A stretch of DNA of 64,000 bases from an uncultured Planctomycetota bacterium (GCA_903847315.1 CAINDG010000048.1:1-64000), one strand, 5' to 3'; numbered from the stretch's first letter, positions 52,297 to 60,697 are shown. Numbers and translations: made by a program. The notes: generated by a model not told the origin, from the letters alone.

Positions 52297-54642
52297 ATGG
52301 AAGCGAAAAAAACCAAACGCCTGTTACTGAAAAGCAAAGCCACGATAGAATTTATAGTTTTAATTTTTGTCACGATGGTTTTATTTGCAACCATAAATCT
52401 TTTGGGGCTATTTGACAGATTTTATCAGTCTTTATCCGGAAAACACCGAACTTTTGATGAATTTCTGCTTGCCACAGCATTTCTCGCAGCGGCGTTAGCT
52501 GTTTATTCGCTCAGAAGGTGGCTTGAGGTACGAAAATCACACAAGGAATTGCAAAAACACAAACGTTACCTTGAAGCTCTTGATAAGGCTGCCGGCATAC
52601 TTTTGCATTCAATGTCAGAAATAAAATATGATGAATTTCTTGCCGCCTTAGGTCCTGCATCCGATGCTGACAGAGTACATATATTCTTAAAAGTCCCTGA
52701 TAAAAATCTCGGTATACCCTTAAGACGAAAAACGCAATGGTGCCGCAATGAAAAAATCCAGCCTGTGCCGAGCGAGTTGACAGAAAAACGCTTTTTCGGA
52801 AAAATTTTCCCAGAGTGGCAAAAGATTCTGTCAACCGGTGGACACATATGTCTCAGTACGAAAAACTTTCCGTCAGAACAGCTTGACTTCTGGGAATCAA
52901 TACAGGTAAAAGCATTGCTCATTGTTCCTGTACTAATAGATAACCAGTTAGGCGGTTTTATGAGTTTTGATAACTGCACGGAAATCCGCCAATGGACAGA
53001 ATCTGAAATCGAATTTCTCCACACAGCCGCAAATGACATGGCAAGTGCGATAAAACGGCTGGAAATCAAAAAAGAATTAAGGGACCAAAGAGATTTTGCG
53101 GAAAAACTAATCGAGACCGCTCAAACCGTTGTTCTGGTACTGGACACAGATGCGAATATTGTAATGTTTAATCCGTATTTCGAAAAATTATCAGGCTACC
53201 AGCTCGATGAGGTAAAGGGGAAAAACTGGTTTGATACTTTTCTGCCGGAACAAGATAGGGGAAAAATTAAAAAACTCTTTGCGACAGCTATAACCAATTC
53301 CTCTATAAAAGGCAATGTTAATCCCATTGTAACCAAAAACGGCCAGCTTCGATATATCGAATGGTTTGATAAAACACTAAAAGATTCAAATGGCAAGACA
53401 ACAGCGATTCTTTCTACCGGTCAGGATATCACCGACAGGCTCAAGGCCGAAGAAGAACTGAAAAACAGTGAAAACACATTCAAGAGTGTTGCTACCGCAG
53501 TGCCTGTCGGGTTAGGCTTTGCCTCTGACAGAAAAATACAATGGGTAAATGATTATCTCTTGCAGCTTCTCGGACGCCAAAAAGAAGAAGTTGTTGGAAG
53601 TGACAGTCGCATATTTTATGAGAACGATGAGGGATATAACCTCGTCGGCAATCAATATTACAGAGAATTAAAAGAAACTGGCAGGTCTGAATTAGAGGTT
53701 AACTGGCAACGCAAAGACGGCAAAGTCCTGAATATACTCCTCACGGGAGCGGCATTAGACAGGCAGGACGTGTCACGTGGAATTATTTTTGCCGCATTGG
53801 ATATCACAGAGCGCAAGCAGGCTGAAGAAGAACTGAAAAAAGCCCATCTTGAACTTGAACAAAGAGTCGTTCAGCGTACCGCAGCCCTGCAGCAGGCAAA
53901 CACTCAGCTTTTAAGGACAATTGAAGAAAGAGACCGTATCCAGAAAATCCTGCAGGAGACTGAAAAGCTGGCCACGGCAGGTAAACTGGCGGCACAAATC
54001 GCCCATGAAATCAACAACCCGATGGCGGGAATTAAAAATTCGTTTCTGCTTATAAAAGATGCCGTCCCATCAAATCATAAATACTTCGAATACGTCGGCA
54101 GAATCGAAAAGGAAATCGACCGGGTCTCGCAAATCGTAAAACAGATGTTCGACCTTTACAGGCCGGGTATGCGTGCGGCAGATAAATTTAGGGTTTGTGA
54201 GGTATTGAGAGATATCAGCGAGCTTTTAAAAATCGCCGGTCAGGAAAAACAGGTGCATATCGAAATCGATTGTCCGGATAACGTAACTGTAGTATTATCA
54301 GAAGCGCTTTTTAGACAGGTGATTTATAATATCCTTTTAAACGCCATACAGGCCTCTCCGCCTCAGGGCAAAGTTAAAATAATCGTCTTTATAGAAAATT
54401 CAAAACTTAACATACAAGTAAGTGATGAAGGAACCGGCATAGATGAAACAATCCGGGACAAAATCTTCGAGCCTTTCTTTACGACCGGCTCCGGCGGCCC
54501 AAAAAGCGGACTGGGACTGGGATTGGCTATAACAAAAGACATTGTTAATGCGATGGAAGGGAAAATATACTTTGAGAACCGTCAGCCTAAAGGAACTACA
54601 TTTAATATTTCAATACCTCTAACCAATGAACCAAAAACTTGA
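52297..54642 (+). CDS. membrane sensor histidine kinase (2 TM, GAF, 2 PAS, HisKA, HATPase_c)
   Basis: A 781-residue kinase. Two membrane helices (about 17-39 and 54-72) enclose a short outer loop. Next come a GAF domain (about 85-255), PAS 1 (about 265-385, VVLVLDTDANIVMFNPYFEK) and PAS 2 (about 390-510), a coiled coil, then HisKA with phospho-acceptor His570 in LAAQIAHEINNPMAG. The ATPase has the N box VIYNILLNAIQASPP, G1 VSDEGTGIDE, F box FEPFFTTGS and G2 GLGLGLAITKDIV. The outer loop is too small for a classic periplasmic sensor, so GAF/PAS probably sense a cytoplasmic signal. It overlaps the response regulator gene by 17 bases, so the two form a pair. Confidence 0.94.
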   Translation: MEAKKTKRLLLKSKATIEFIVLIFVTMVLFATINLLGLFDRFYQSLSGKHRTFDEFLLATAFLAAALAVYSLRRWLEVRKSHKELQKHKRYLEALDKAAGILLHSMSEIKYDEFLAALGPASDADRVHIFLKVPDKNLGIPLRRKTQWCRNEKIQPVPSELTEKRFFGKIFPEWQKILSTGGHICLSTKNFPSEQLDFWESIQVKALLIVPVLIDNQLGGFMSFDNCTEIRQWTESEIEFLHTAANDMASAIKRLEIKKELRDQRDFAEKLIETAQTVVLVLDTDANIVMFNPYFEKLSGYQLDEVKGKNWFDTFLPEQDRGKIKKLFATAITNSSIKGNVNPIVTKNGQLRYIEWFDKTLKDSNGKTTAILSTGQDITDRLKAEEELKNSENTFKSVATAVPVGLGFASDRKIQWVNDYLLQLLGRQKEEVVGSDSRIFYENDEGYNLVGNQYYRELKETGRSELEVNWQRKDGKVLNILLTGAALDRQDVSRGIIFAALDITERKQAEEELKKAHLELEQRVVQRTAALQQANTQLLRTIEERDRIQKILQETEKLATAGKLAAQIAHEINNPMAGIKNSFLLIKDAVPSNHKYFEYVGRIEKEIDRVSQIVKQMFDLYRPGMRAADKFRVCEVLRDISELLKIAGQEKQVHIEIDCPDNVTVVLSEALFRQVIYNILLNAIQASPPQGKVKIIVFIENSKLNIQVSDEGTGIDETIRDKIFEPFFTTGSGGPKSGLGLGLAITKDIVNAMEGKIYFENRQPKGTTFNISIPLTNEPKT

Positions 54643-55387
54643 TAATATATCCGGAAGTATTCTGCTCGCGGACGATGAACAAACTTTTCTTGCCGCAACA
54701 TCAGAACTGCTGCGGAATGAAGGCTTCCTCTGCGACTGCGCTGAAAATTCGCAGCAGGCACTCGAAAAACTTTCAAAGACATCTTACGATTTGCTAATCG
54801 CTGATATAAAAATGCCCGGCAACTCAAACCTTGAGCTTATTCAAAAGGTCGCATCTGAAAATCCAGCTATAAGCGTTATCCTCATAACAGGCTACCCTTC
54901 TCAGCAGACTGCCATAGCGGCTGTTCGGCTGCCTGTTGTCGCTTATATACTCAAGCCTCTCGATTTTTCAGAACTGCTGCAAAAAACCAAATCGGCCGTG
55001 AAACTCAGTATGCTTTATAAAACCGTATCCAGAACTAAAAATAATCTTCTAAACTGGATTGGCGAACTGGAAAACATCGAGCTTTCTCTCCAACAGGGTA
55101 AACATAATGCATTCGATGCCGCACTAAAAGGCTTTCTTGAAATTACCACCGCAAAAATCGATGAGACTTTCAATAATATCCGATTAGTTGCAAGCCTGAT
55201 TGACGACCTGAACCCCCAAACACAGGTCTGCCAGATTATGTACTGCCCAAAACTATCCGACCTTACCGACGGCATCCAGCAGGCTGTATCTTCTCTAAAA
55301 AAGAGCAGAGAACTGTTTAAATCCAAACAATTGGCCGAAATAAGAGCGAAACTGGAAAAACTACTTGAAAACATTCAAAAATACTAA
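54626..55387 (+). CDS. response regulator with an unrecognised C-terminal domain (copy 1)
   Basis: A 253-residue protein. The receiver domain (about 10-130) has acidic pocket ILLADDEQTF, phospho-acceptor Asp60 in LLIADIKMPGN, Thr in VILITGYPSQ and Lys in VAYILKPLDF. The remaining 120 residues or so are helical and are not a DNA-binding, GGDEF, HD-GYP or AAA domain that I know. They contain VCQIMYCPKLSDLTDGIQQ and SRELFKSKQLAEIRAKLEKL. The regulator at 57027 shares both phrases. It overlaps the kinase gene, which probably phosphorylates it. Confidence 0.9.
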   Translation: MNQKLDNISGSILLADDEQTFLAATSELLRNEGFLCDCAENSQQALEKLSKTSYDLLIADIKMPGNSNLELIQKVASENPAISVILITGYPSQQTAIAAVRLPVVAYILKPLDFSELLQKTKSAVKLSMLYKTVSRTKNNLLNWIGELENIELSLQQGKHNAFDAALKGFLEITTAKIDETFNNIRLVASLIDDLNPQTQVCQIMYCPKLSDLTDGIQQAVSSLKKSRELFKSKQLAEIRAKLEKLLENIQKY

Positions 55388-55560
55388 ACCTATTACCCAC
55401 TCATAACTCCTTCTTAACACTAAACTTAAATAGCCAACCCAAACTTTTACCCTTCGTGGAATCATTGAAACGCAAAGCATTATTTGATATAATATTGTAT
55501 TGAATTATTAATAATGTTCAAACAGGACAAGTGTCCGGGGACGAAGGAAAAGAACCGATA
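55388..55560 (+). other. gap between response regulator and permease genes
   Basis: No terminator with a clear stem is seen. TTGATATAATATTGTATTGAATTATTAATAATG, around 55480-55515, is A/T-rich and could hold a promoter (TATAAT at about 55485-55490), so the permease may be transcribed separately. Confidence 0.35.
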
Positions 55561-56931
55561 ATGCACTCGTTATATCATATGCTGCAAATAGCGCTGCGTG
55601 CGTTGCGTCGTCACATAATGCGCTCAATCCTGACTTGTTTGGGAATCGTCATAGGCGTCGCGGCCGTCATCGCGGTAATTGAGATTGGCCAGGGAACATC
55701 CTACGAGATACAGAAAACAATTGCGTCGGTTGGCGCCTCTGTTCTGCAGATTGACCCCAGCGCTACCGTCAAAGCCGGCGTCAGCACCGGCAGAGGCGGC
55801 AAGGTTACCCTCACACCTGCCGACTGCGAAGTTATGCTCAGCGAGTGTTCCGCGATTCGCTATGCCGCTCCCAGCGTTGACTGCCACGCACAAATCGCCT
55901 ATGGCAATCGCAACTGGTCTCCAAGGACCGTACTGGGCACAACACCCGCGTTTCTCGAAATTCGTGACTGGGCAAATTTGACAGAGGGCCAGCCCTTTAC
56001 AGATAACGATGTAATCAGCGGCGCCCGTGTGTGCCTTATCGGCCAGACAATCGTACGAGAACTTTTCCAGGGCGCCTCGCCTATCGGCAAAGAAATTCGC
56101 GTCAAAAATATTCAGATGAAAGTCATCGGCGTTCTCAGCCCAAAGGGTGTTAATATGATGGGCAGAGACCAGGACGATTATGTCATTACGCCGTGGACAA
56201 CGGCAAAGTTCCGGCTTTCAGGTTTAAGACAGGCCGAGCCCACCAGCACATCTTCGTCGTCTGACTCACAGGTTAACAGTCTCAATCGCCTTTACCCCAA
56301 CCAGCAGATGCAGTTTTATCCACAGCAGTCCGCTGCGCAAATGGCCGATTATCCCCAGATGGCACGGTTCTGCGACCTCGACGACATCTTTGTATCCGCC
56401 AACTCGCCGCAGGAAAAAACGCTGGCCATTCGTGAAATCACCAGTCTTCTTCGCCAGCGGCACCACCTTTTGGACGGCGAACCTGACGATTTCAGAATCC
56501 GCGACTTAGGCGAAATCTCCAAGACTCTCGCCTCGACACAAATACTGATGACACATCTGCTGCTTTGCGTGGCGCTCATCTCGCTTCTGGTCGGCGGAGT
56601 CGGTATTATGAACATTATGCTGGCTTCGGTAACAGAGCGGACAAGGGAAATCGGCGTAAGAATGGCTGTGGGCGCACGTTCCAAAGACATCCTTCGTCAA
56701 TTCCTGATTGAAGCGACGATTCTTAGCCTTCTCGGCGGCTGCGCAGGCATCCTGCTGGGCCACGGCGCTTCGCTGGCTGTCACATTTTTTCTGAGATGGA
56801 AAACTATGCCGTCTCTGCCTGCTGTAATCGCAGCATTTACTGTCTCGGTAAGCGTAGGGCTCATTTTCGGTTTTTATCCGGCATGGAAAGCTTCACGAAT
56901 GGACCCGATTGGGGCTTTGCATTACGAGTAG
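55561..56931 (+). CDS. MacB/FtsX-type ABC transporter permease without a linked ATPase
   Basis: A 456-residue inner membrane protein. One N-terminal helix ([20 protein letters not shown]) is followed by a periplasmic MacB core domain of about 270 residues and a C-terminal FtsX block of three helices ([20 protein letters not shown], then [17 protein letters not shown]). It ends [17 protein letters not shown], the conserved family end. A Ser-rich stretch ([10 protein letters not shown]) interrupts the core near residue 225. I chose the ATG at 55561 over the upstream GTG at 55531. Partner ATPase and MacA-like adaptor genes are absent on both sides; response regulator genes flank it. It could work with a distant ATPase in efflux or in signalling, as BceB-type permeases do. 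Confidence 0.9.
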
Positions 56932-57026
56932 TGCCAGGACCAAACACTGTAAAGTTATCTTGAAATTATCGTAATGCCGGTATAAAATATCATTCCGACA
57001 GTTAAACCTCCGAAAGGATGTTGTTT

Positions 57027-57773
57027 ATGACAGAACCCGGAAGAATTTTACTTGCTGATGATGAGCAGACTTTCTGCGACTCCACCGGCGAACTGCTTCG
57101 GCGGGAAGGCTACCAGTGCGACTGTGTTCCGGATGCTCACGCCGCCATAGAAAAATTAAAAGAAAACTCCTATGACCTGCTAATCGCTGATATAAAAATG
57201 CCCGGCAATCCGGACCTCGAACTGATTAAAGAACTAACAAGATTGGCAAAAGGCGTCCCCGCCATACTCGTAACTGCCTATCCATCACAAAAATCGGCTA
57301 TCGAAGCCATTCAACTGCCGGTCGCGGCATATATGGTAAAACCAATAGATTTTGAAGAACTGAAGAAAAATGTCGCTGAGGCAATTAAACAAAAAAATCT
57401 CTTTCAGGCTGTCTCAGACACAAAACAAAGACTGCGACAGTGGCAGACTCAAATGCAGGATATAGAAGAAATCCTGAAGAAAAGAAATCAAAAAACATTC
57501 TCCGCATCCGTCAGGGGCTTTCTCGACCTTACCTTAGGCAATATAAGCGCGGCATTTACGGATGTAAAAAATCTTACCGGGATACTGACAGACGGCCAAA
57601 AAGAATCGGCAGTCTGTAACCTTCTGAACTGCCCAAAACTTAGTGAACTTACGGAAGGCCTGGCTGAAACAATCAAAATACTCGAAGTAACAAAAAGCTC
57701 CTTCAAGTCAAAAGAACTGGGTGAGTTAAGAATAAGACTGGAACAACTGATGAAAAAGGTAAAAAAAGCTTAA
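57027..57773 (+). CDS. response regulator with an unrecognised C-terminal domain (copy 2)
   Basis: A 248-residue paralogue of the regulator at 54626. Receiver: ILLADDEQTF, Asp55 in LLIADIKMPGN, PAILVTAYPSQ and VAAYMVKPIDF. The C-terminal domain repeats the pattern VCNLLNCPKLSELTEGLAE and TKSSFKSKELGELRIRLEQL. I chose the ATG at 57027 with AAAGGA 8 bases upstream rather than the ATG at 57018 within that ribosome-binding site. No second kinase gene is adjacent, so one kinase may serve both regulators. Confidence 0.9.
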   Translation: MTEPGRILLADDEQTFCDSTGELLRREGYQCDCVPDAHAAIEKLKENSYDLLIADIKMPGNPDLELIKELTRLAKGVPAILVTAYPSQKSAIEAIQLPVAAYMVKPIDFEELKKNVAEAIKQKNLFQAVSDTKQRLRQWQTQMQDIEEILKKRNQKTFSASVRGFLDLTLGNISAAFTDVKNLTGILTDGQKESAVCNLLNCPKLSELTEGLAETIKILEVTKSSFKSKELGELRIRLEQLMKKVKKA

Positions 57774-58930: not shown

Positions 58931-60697
58931 TTATTTTCGGCTTGTCAGATAAATCGCCTGCTCGGCGAAGAGGTTCGGAGCGAATTTTACCGGACTTCGG
59001 CGATTACCGATAAGGGGAATCTTTGCTTCCACTTTTGCGCCAATTTCGTCGCAGAACTTCTCAAAATCCTTGAGCGATATAACATGGATATTCGGCGTGT
59101 CGTACCATTCGAAAGGCAGTTGTTTTGTGCGAGGAGCCTGGCCGCCGAAGAACAGACCTGCCCTGCACCGCCAGTACGCAAAATTTGGGAAACTAACGAT
59201 AACCTTTGACGCAACCCTTAAAAGCTCGGCAAAAACCAGATGCGGATTCTTGAGGGTCTGCAAGGTCTGCGAAAGTACGGCATAATCAAAACTGCCGTCC
59301 GGATAATGTTTAAGGCCTCGCTCGATATCCCTGTGAATAATATCAAGGCCGTTGTTTACGCACTTCAAAACCAGCTCCTGGTCAACCTCGATGCCCTCAG
59401 CGATAATATTTTTGTCGTACTGGAGATTTAAAAGCAATTGTCCGTCGCCGCATCCGACATCAAGTACCCTGCTGTTTCGCTCGATGAGCGATTCGATAAG
59501 TTCATAATCAACACGAAGTCTTATCGCCCTGTCAATACCCTTTATGCTCGAAACCGCAGCGGGCCTGTCAAATTTAGGTTTTTCAATAGTTGTCGAAAGA
59601 AATCCGCTAATCAGGCTGCCGAGAGTTTCGGGTTCGAGCAAAAAAGCATCGTGGCCGTAAGGCGAAAAAATATTGCAGTAGCTGACGGGTTTTCTCTGTG
59701 CGACAAGGGCGTTTACCATTTCTTCGGACTGAGCGGGCGTAAAGAGCCAGTCGCTTGTGAAGCTGACTATCAGAAATCTTGATTTTGCTTTGGCAAATGC
59801 CTCCCGCAGAGAGCCGAAATCCCTTTCCATATCGAAATAATCCATAGCCTTTGTTATATACAGGTAGCAATTGGCGTCGAAACGGTCGACAAAGCTTTGA
59901 CCCTGATAGTCAAGATATGTCTCAACGGAAAATTCAGAATTAAAATCATAACTGTATTTTTCCGCGCTCCTGAGCTCTCTGCCGAATTTTTCTCTCATAC
60001 TTTCTTTTGAAAGATATGTTATATGGCCTATCATTCTGGCGGTAGCAAGCCCTTTCTTCGGCACTCTGCCGGCTTCCATATCCGCTAAGATAGCGTTTCT
60101 TCCGACCGCGTCAAATGCGATTGCCTGCGGGCCGAGTCTTGAAGTTGCGGCTATTACTGTCGCAGATTTAATAAAATCCGGATATTCAATCGCCCACTGC
60201 AAAACCTGCATTCCGCCCATTGAGCCACCGATGACATTTAAAAGCTGTTTTATGCCGAGCTTATCGAGCAGTAATTTCTGAACCTTTACCATATCCGCTA
60301 TGGTTATCATCGGAAAGTCAAGATTGTAAGGTTTTCCAGTTTGCGGATTGATGCTCGACGGGCCTGTTGTGCCGCTGCAGCTTCCCAGAAAATTGGAGCA
60401 TATAACAAAATATTTGTTTGTATCAATCGCCTTGCCGGGCCCTATCATTATATTCCACCAGCCGGGCTTTTCATCGTCGCTGTTGTTGAAACCGGCTGCG
60501 TGGGCGCTAAGGCTGAGGGCGTGGCAGATAAGCACAACGTTATCGCCTGCCGGATTCAATTTGCCATAAGTTTCATAAGCCACATCTATCGGGCCGAGGG
60601 TCTTTCCGCTGACCAATTGCAAAGGCTTGTCGGGGCTGACAACCCTTATGGTCTTAGTCTCTACTACGCCTACCGAATTTGTCTTATCTTCTGCCAT
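58931..60697 (-). CDS. metX: homoserine O-acetyltransferase fused to MetW
   Basis: A 588-residue fusion. Residues about 15-375 are a MetX-type alpha/beta-hydrolase: VLICHALSLSAHAAG, the nucleophile Ser in NVIGGSMGGMQVLQW, Asp in FTSDWLFTP and His in YGHDAFLLE. It acylates homoserine for methionine synthesis. Residues about 390-588 are MetW, a class I methyltransferase-fold partner with SAM-site-like RVLDVGCGDGQLLL and DYAVLSQTLQTL. In proteobacteria metX and metW are separate adjacent genes and MetW is reported to activate MetX. No SAM-II riboswitch is recognisable upstream. Confidence 0.93.
   Translation of the reverse strand: MAEDKTNSVGVVETKTIRVVSPDKPLQLVSGKTLGPIDVAYETYGKLNPAGDNVVLICHALSLSAHAAGFNNSDDEKPGWWNIMIGPGKAIDTNKYFVICSNFLGSCSGTTGPSSINPQTGKPYNLDFPMITIADMVKVQKLLLDKLGIKQLLNVIGGSMGGMQVLQWAIEYPDFIKSATVIAATSRLGPQAIAFDAVGRNAILADMEAGRVPKKGLATARMIGHITYLSKESMREKFGRELRSAEKYSYDFNSEFSVETYLDYQGQSFVDRFDANCYLYITKAMDYFDMERDFGSLREAFAKAKSRFLIVSFTSDWLFTPAQSEEMVNALVAQRKPVSYCNIFSPYGHDAFLLEPETLGSLISGFLSTTIEKPKFDRPAAVSSIKGIDRAIRLRVDYELIESLIERNSRVLDVGCGDGQLLLNLQYDKNIIAEGIEVDQELVLKCVNNGLDIIHRDIERGLKHYPDGSFDYAVLSQTLQTLKNPHLVFAELLRVASKVIVSFPNFAYWRCRAGLFFGGQAPRTKQLPFEWYDTPNIHVISLKDFEKFCDEIGAKVEAKIPLIGNRRSPVKFAPNLFAEQAIYLTSRK

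Follow-up and report, generated by a model that had tools for sequence, protein, structure and literature searches.

An undescribed helical output domain shared by two paralogous response regulators of a planctomycete, and its kinship with small proteins of iron, haem and oxygen loci

The locus described here lies in a stretch of 64,000 nucleotides (nt) of DNA from an uncultured Planctomycetota bacterium (GCA_903847315.1, CAINDG010000048.1:1-64000), which is given as one strand, 5' to 3', and is called the window below. Four genes follow one another on the same (+) strand within positions 52297-57773, namely a sensor histidine kinase, a first response regulator (RR1), a MacB/FtsX-type permease and a second, paralogous response regulator (RR2), with the RR1 gene opening 17 nt inside the 3' end of the kinase gene (Table 1). 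A first-pass annotation made from the sequence had placed all four genes at these coordinates, and the gene calls reproduce them; the ATG that it took as the start of RR2 is likewise preferred here over the upstream opening of the open reading frame (ORF). Both regulators end in the same helical domain of ~125 residues, which has no counterpart among the described families that were searched. As judged by sequence comparison, this output domain is the fused form of an undescribed family of small proteins with an iron, haem or oxygen neighbourhood.

Table 1. Positions of the genes, domains and residues discussed in the text (window numbering; aa, amino acids).
Feature	Position (nt)	Strand	Evidence
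Secreted-looking protein, 2861 residues	43403-51988	+	Sequence, by eye
Sensor histidine kinase, 781 aa	52297..54642	+	Pfam, sequence
Kinase H-box, His570	54004-54006	+	
RR1, 253 aa, receiver 12-120 and FKSK output domain	54626..55387	+	Pfam, family profile
RR1 phospho-acceptor Asp60	54803-54805	+	
RR1 output domain	54998..55384	+	Family profile E 5.6e-43; hairpin match
RR1 Cys202, Cys207	55229-55231, 55244-55246	+	
RR1 hairpin core	55256-55375	+	
MacB/FtsX-type permease, orphan, judged outside the module	55531..56931 (likely ATG 55562)	+	Pfam MacB_PCD and FtsX
RR2, receiver and FKSK output domain	57027..57773 (ORF opens 57018)	+	Pfam
RR2 phospho-acceptor Asp58 of the ORF (Asp55 from ATG 57027)	57189-57191	+	
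RR2 output domain	57384..57770	+	AlphaFold2, hairpin match, 43-member alignment
RR2 Cys200, Cys205 (ORF numbering)	57615-57617, 57630-57632	+	
RR2 hairpin core	57639-57758	+	
MetX-like hydrolase fused to MetW, one ORF	58931-60697	-	Pfam

Pfam assigns to the kinase a GAF domain (112-252), two PAS matches, a HisKA domain (562-622) and a HATPase_c domain (670-776), and its N-terminal hydrophobic segments would, from their sequence, make it a transmembrane sensor. Neither a receiver in the kinase nor an HPt gene at the locus was found by Pfam. As the locus lacks HPt and any other relay component, a multi-step phosphorelay is not shown, and the label of phosphorelay given in the first-pass annotation reduces to a kinase with two regulators. 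Response_reg is the only Pfam domain in each regulator (E 1.8e-22 and 1.6e-22), and the two receivers, previously described as normal, do possess complete catalytic residues, with the DD, Thr and Lys positions present in both alongside the phospho-acceptor aspartates. A gene with HisKA and HATPase_c lies directly upstream of the regulators here and in most relatives, as expected of a cognate kinase. In L067 a receiver of the same type carries an AraC-type output (Pfam), and in L064 one carries an apparent sigma-54 output (read from sequence); such swaps would be expected of a new domain that is exchangeable with other outputs. The receivers also share a C-x-C pair (CDC; RR1 residues 36-38, RR2 residues 34-36), conserved in 29 of the 41 examined in the family. 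Since receivers of this type with AraC (L067) or sigma-54 (L064) outputs have it too, the pair is a feature of the receiver and not of the output.

The output domains of RR1 and RR2 are 33% identical over 126 residues, in agreement with the earlier impression of one unfamiliar helical domain at both C-termini. The assertion that it belongs to no known output family also stands: the C-terminal parts of the two regulators have no credible match in Pfam, NCBIfam, PHROGs or PDB sequences, the 43 aligned members have none in Pfam or NCBIfam, and the family profile has none among PDB sequences. Weak Pfam and NCBIfam matches (Glyco_transf_99, ISL3 transposase, K-box and others) were rejected as noise of helical sequence, because they involve few scattered members at poor scores. 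No description of the domain was found in the open-access literature, nor of an FKSK motif with response regulators or under feoD/feoE and similar names. A scan of species genomes (about 85,000), followed by iterated profile searches of fetched DNA, yielded 46 distinct output-domain sequences, with full-length relatives in Latescibacterota, Zixibacteria, KSB1, LCP-89, Zipacnadia, Deltaproteobacteria, Verrucomicrobia, Holophagaceae, Pirellulales and Thiotrichales. Within groups the domain is rare: the searches found it in 10 of 59 near relatives, in 4 of 294 genomes sampled from the phylum and in 7 of 241 sampled from that of L065. A phage or mobile-element origin was considered and set aside, as searches of viral contigs, phages and plasmids returned no match. 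At one Pirellulales locus (L056 3847-5245), two overlapping reading frames each encode an output domain, of which one follows a receiver and the other stands alone.

The conserved core of the domain is a C-terminal basic hairpin, [T/S][K/R]xxF[K/R]S[K/R]xLxxLRx[K/R]L, in which K or R occupies the four basic positions throughout a 34-sequence set (34/34). A 42-position profile of this hairpin matches RR2 (E 1.6e-18) and RR1 (E 6.0e-15), though by construction, given that their own sequences are in the profile. The first-pass annotation had described the core as an invariant-looking C-x5-C-P motif followed by FKSK; the FKSK hairpin is upheld, while the cysteines are spaced C-x4-C-P (AVCNLLNCPK and QVCQIMYCPK in the two regulators) and are not invariant. 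Both cysteines are present in 34 of 43 members, both are missing in the other nine, and a single one is found in none, a pattern of joint retention or loss which suggests that the two residues work as a pair where present. The pair was rejected as a defining feature of the domain, being absent from these nine regulators and from many small relatives. For the same reason, the metal or redox role formerly proposed for it is possible for most members and cannot be the core function.

Monomer models were produced by AlphaFold2 with the family alignment. The RR2 output domain is predicted to be all-helical, with a predicted local distance difference test (pLDDT) score of 84 and a predicted template-modelling score (pTM) of 0.49; the corresponding values for whole RR2 are 85 and 0.68. 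In the latter model an unbroken helix would run from residue 112, within the receiver, to residue 155, followed by a second long helix (159-191), a low-confidence loop with the Cys pair, a helix (206-227), the FKSK turn and a final helix (232-250). Foldseek returned no match to the output domain in the PDB at E<=0.001, and weak resemblances to 14-3-3 and designed-helix folds were judged meaningless. When the whole RR2 model was searched against the PDB, the matches were receivers, with PorX the top full-length match and EutV among the longer alignments. The regulators may thus be compared with PorX, RssB and ANTAR/EutV, response regulators with outputs other than a helix-turn-helix (HTH), which they resemble in their NtrC/PorX/RssB-like receiver, kinase partner and helical C-terminal part, but the output domain is non-homologous to theirs by Pfam, NCBIfam, PDB sequence and output-domain fold search.

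Across the loci examined, regulators with the output domain mostly lie directly behind a kinase gene. The order kinase-RR1-RR2 is kept in the window's family (L034, L036, L037, L038, L040, L041 and L166); of the four-gene order whose recurrence the first-pass annotation proposed to survey, the kinase and regulators are conserved and the permease is not. Two outcomes that the first-pass annotation had named as speaking against it, a match to a known family and the absence of any conserved order, did not come about. In a tree of the regulators, all RR1 and all RR2 sequences of the window's family form two clades, each with 97% support in the Shimodaira-Hasegawa-like approximate likelihood ratio test and with the longer stem on the RR1 side, indicating that one old duplication made the pair. 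Separate duplications are seen in the tree for Latescibacterota (L042) and Zixibacteria (L044). In L039, RR2 alone follows the kinase, so RR1 is dispensable there, and many other phyla have just one regulator, encoded behind a multi-PAS kinase (one with an N-terminal propeller in L051). Beyond kinases, receivers and four genes for methyl-accepting chemotaxis proteins (MCP), the regulators of other phyla share no neighbours, and no transporter is kept beside the regulators across the loci examined. The slot between the paralogues is variable, holding the permease in the window, a phage-integrase-family tyrosine recombinase of ~310-325 aa in L034, L036 and L037 (checked by Pfam in L036) and nothing in other relatives.

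The hairpin also occurs in free-standing small proteins of ~85-105 aa. Hairpin-only matches first surfaced in a search of the phylum of L065, and the 42-position profile was used to search further genome samples. Among 39 small proteins from Desulfobacterota-type genomes (the phylum of L045 and the class of G1064) and an Acidobacteriota sample (two matches), 37 are encoded no more than about 1.5 kb from a gene for FeoB, FeoA or DtxR (example neighbours Pfam-checked), a count that overstates the independent cases because the sampled genomes are related to each other; one of the two unlinked proteins lies 5.8 kb from a Feo-linked copy on the same contig. Both verrucomicrobial small proteins (L155 and L156; 2/2) are encoded inside haem-import operons, with the substrate-binding protein of L155 confirmed by Pfam and the rest of the operon read from sequence, and all five gammaproteobacterial ones (L168-L172) adjoin a protoglobin-PAS-GGDEF gene. 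Homology between the fused and free-standing forms is apparent from profile-profile comparison: the output domain and the small proteins of Feo loci align across 82 columns at a probability of 98.7 and E 2e-16, with C-x4-C-P lined up with C-x4-C-P-H-K, and the hairpins of the Feo-linked and globin-linked proteins match each other at E 3.8e-10. The small proteins that were scanned fall into no Pfam or NCBIfam family, and nine of these small relatives gave no match to the winged-helix family FeoC in either database. FeoI of Stenotrophomonas (PMC9047314) was considered as an equivalent and rejected, as it is a predicted membrane protein. The L168-L172 proteins carry C-x5-C in place of C-x4-C. A further arrangement is seen in L153, L154, L157 and L160 (Opitutaceae-type), where short regulators consisting of a receiver and the hairpin alone adjoin MCP genes.

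The domain make-up, family, hairpin homology, gene orders and duplication history established here, together with the independence of the permease described below, frame the explanation that we favour, at a probability of roughly 0.6: an ordinary two-component system whose output is the phosphorylation-controlled version of an undescribed small hairpin effector. The kinase would phosphorylate both paralogous regulators, and the signal would be passed from the phosphorylated receiver along the long continuous helix to the helical output domain, the business end of which would be the C-terminal basic hairpin around the F-K-S-K turn. This hairpin may be an effector that binds to some common partner or site in the cell, and the strict conservation of its basic residues points to nucleic acid or a different acidic surface, such as that of a protein, as the target. 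The regulators would then represent the form controlled by phosphorylation, and the small proteins a form controlled by synthesis or, in many, by the Cys pair. Several points weigh against this explanation. The basic hairpin might just as well serve to dock on proteins; many of the linkage cases are not independent, since the genomes in question are related; and confidence in the output-domain model is moderate (pTM 0.49), with no fold match in the PDB. Furthermore, no FeoA, FeoB or DtxR gene lies beside the regulators in the window or in L034-L068 (up to about 16 kb each). These Feo-free loci serve as a control for the linkage test. They also mean that an iron or redox link of the window's own regulators would come by homology to the small proteins and not from regulator neighbourhood.

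Other explanations place the hairpin on different targets. It is possible, at odds clearly short of even, that this is a new helical DNA-binding output domain and that the small proteins act locally to regulate the transcription of feo, haem-import and globin-cyclase genes. DNA-binding transcription factor is the commonest role of response-regulator outputs, four hairpin positions retain basic residues and the small-protein genes adjoin operons that they could regulate; however, no HTH family is matched in Pfam or NCBIfam, many feo loci already contain a DtxR regulator, and the modelled two-helix hairpins do not resemble a tri-helical HTH. We consider it rather unlikely that the hairpin is a FeoC-like protein-protein module that docks on a transporter or enzyme (FeoB, cyclase or chemoreceptor) and alters its activity or stability, as the regulators would do upon phosphorylation. 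The small gene beside feoB and the Cys pair of many members recall FeoC, for which a Cys motif is reported (PMC8749426), and the candidate partners vary by lineage (FeoB, protoglobin-GGDEF, and MCP near the verrucomicrobial regulators), but none is common to all contexts and no transporter is conserved beside the regulators. FeoC also differs in lacking any Pfam or NCBIfam relation to these proteins and in being a winged helix, in contrast to the helical hairpins predicted here. An RNA-binding antiterminator like the ANTAR regulators appears very improbable. The combination of a receiver, a coiled helix and a small helical tail is similar, and the full-length model aligns with RNA-bound EutV over 190 columns (template-modelling score 0.71 by EutV length), but the root-mean-square deviation of 7.3 Å indicates that mostly the receiver and helix are superimposed. 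Moreover, Pfam ANTAR is matched by neither regulator at E<=1 and is absent from the families listed for the 43 output domains.

Least credible of all is the model of the first-pass annotation, in which the two regulators and the permease, the latter as input or output, would constitute a Bce-like module for sensing or efflux. The identification of the permease itself was sound, as Pfam finds MacB_PCD and FtsX, the domains of MacB/FtsX permeases, and no ATP-binding cassette (ABC) ATPase gene adjoins it; the window copy is an orphan, also without an adaptor gene. Its position between RR1 and RR2 gives the window a kinase, a regulator and an FtsX-like permease as neighbours, as in BceRS-BceAB, but the window is the only such case among the loci examined, the linked ATPase is missing and the kinase has GAF/PAS sensor domains. 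In the congener G003 (98% complete), the order surface protein - permease (76% identical) - SIS gene - MetX/MetW is found in perfect synteny, with no kinase or regulators at the site and no output-domain match genome-wide, whereas the order in both L034 and L041 is surface protein - kinase - RR1 - RR2 - SIS, with no permease. As each occurs there without the other, the permease and the kinase/regulators are independent occupants of one site, and by this gene content the permease is taken to be an unrelated passenger outside the module. Elsewhere the genome of the window appears to encode a complete MacAB-type operon (outer-membrane factor, permease, ATPase and adaptor; read from sequence), the permease of which is 57% identical to the orphan; the orphan is thus a paralogue, and may borrow an ATPase in trans. 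Of the genes flanking the locus, the repeat-rich protein directly upstream of the kinase is kept there in several relatives and contains, by eye, a subtilisin-like stretch and, close to its end, a pair of dockerin-like EF-hands, and the downstream fusion of an alpha/beta hydrolase (MetX-like) to MetW is also kept in relatives.

A wider role may tentatively be proposed, although we hold it to be less probable than not: the hairpin might serve bacteria generally as an undescribed effector in the physiology of iron, haem and oxygen. It would act as a Feo accessory or regulator in Desulfobacterota-type bacteria and would work with globin-coupled cyclases in Gammaproteobacteria, while as the output of response regulators it would put one and the same target under the control of a two-component system. 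Output domains are the basis on which response regulators are classed, and one that spans phyla but is absent from Pfam and NCBIfam keeps whole pathways from being annotated. The small unnamed proteins of Feo loci provide the first functional handle on this domain. Through them, a Feo-associated protein family that had gone unnoticed comes into view in lineages from which no FeoC is known; the existing Feo survey, which covers FeoC and FeoB-associated Cys-rich peptides, does not name the lineages that carry the hairpin proteins, and Desulfo- lineages go unmentioned in its text (PMC8749426).

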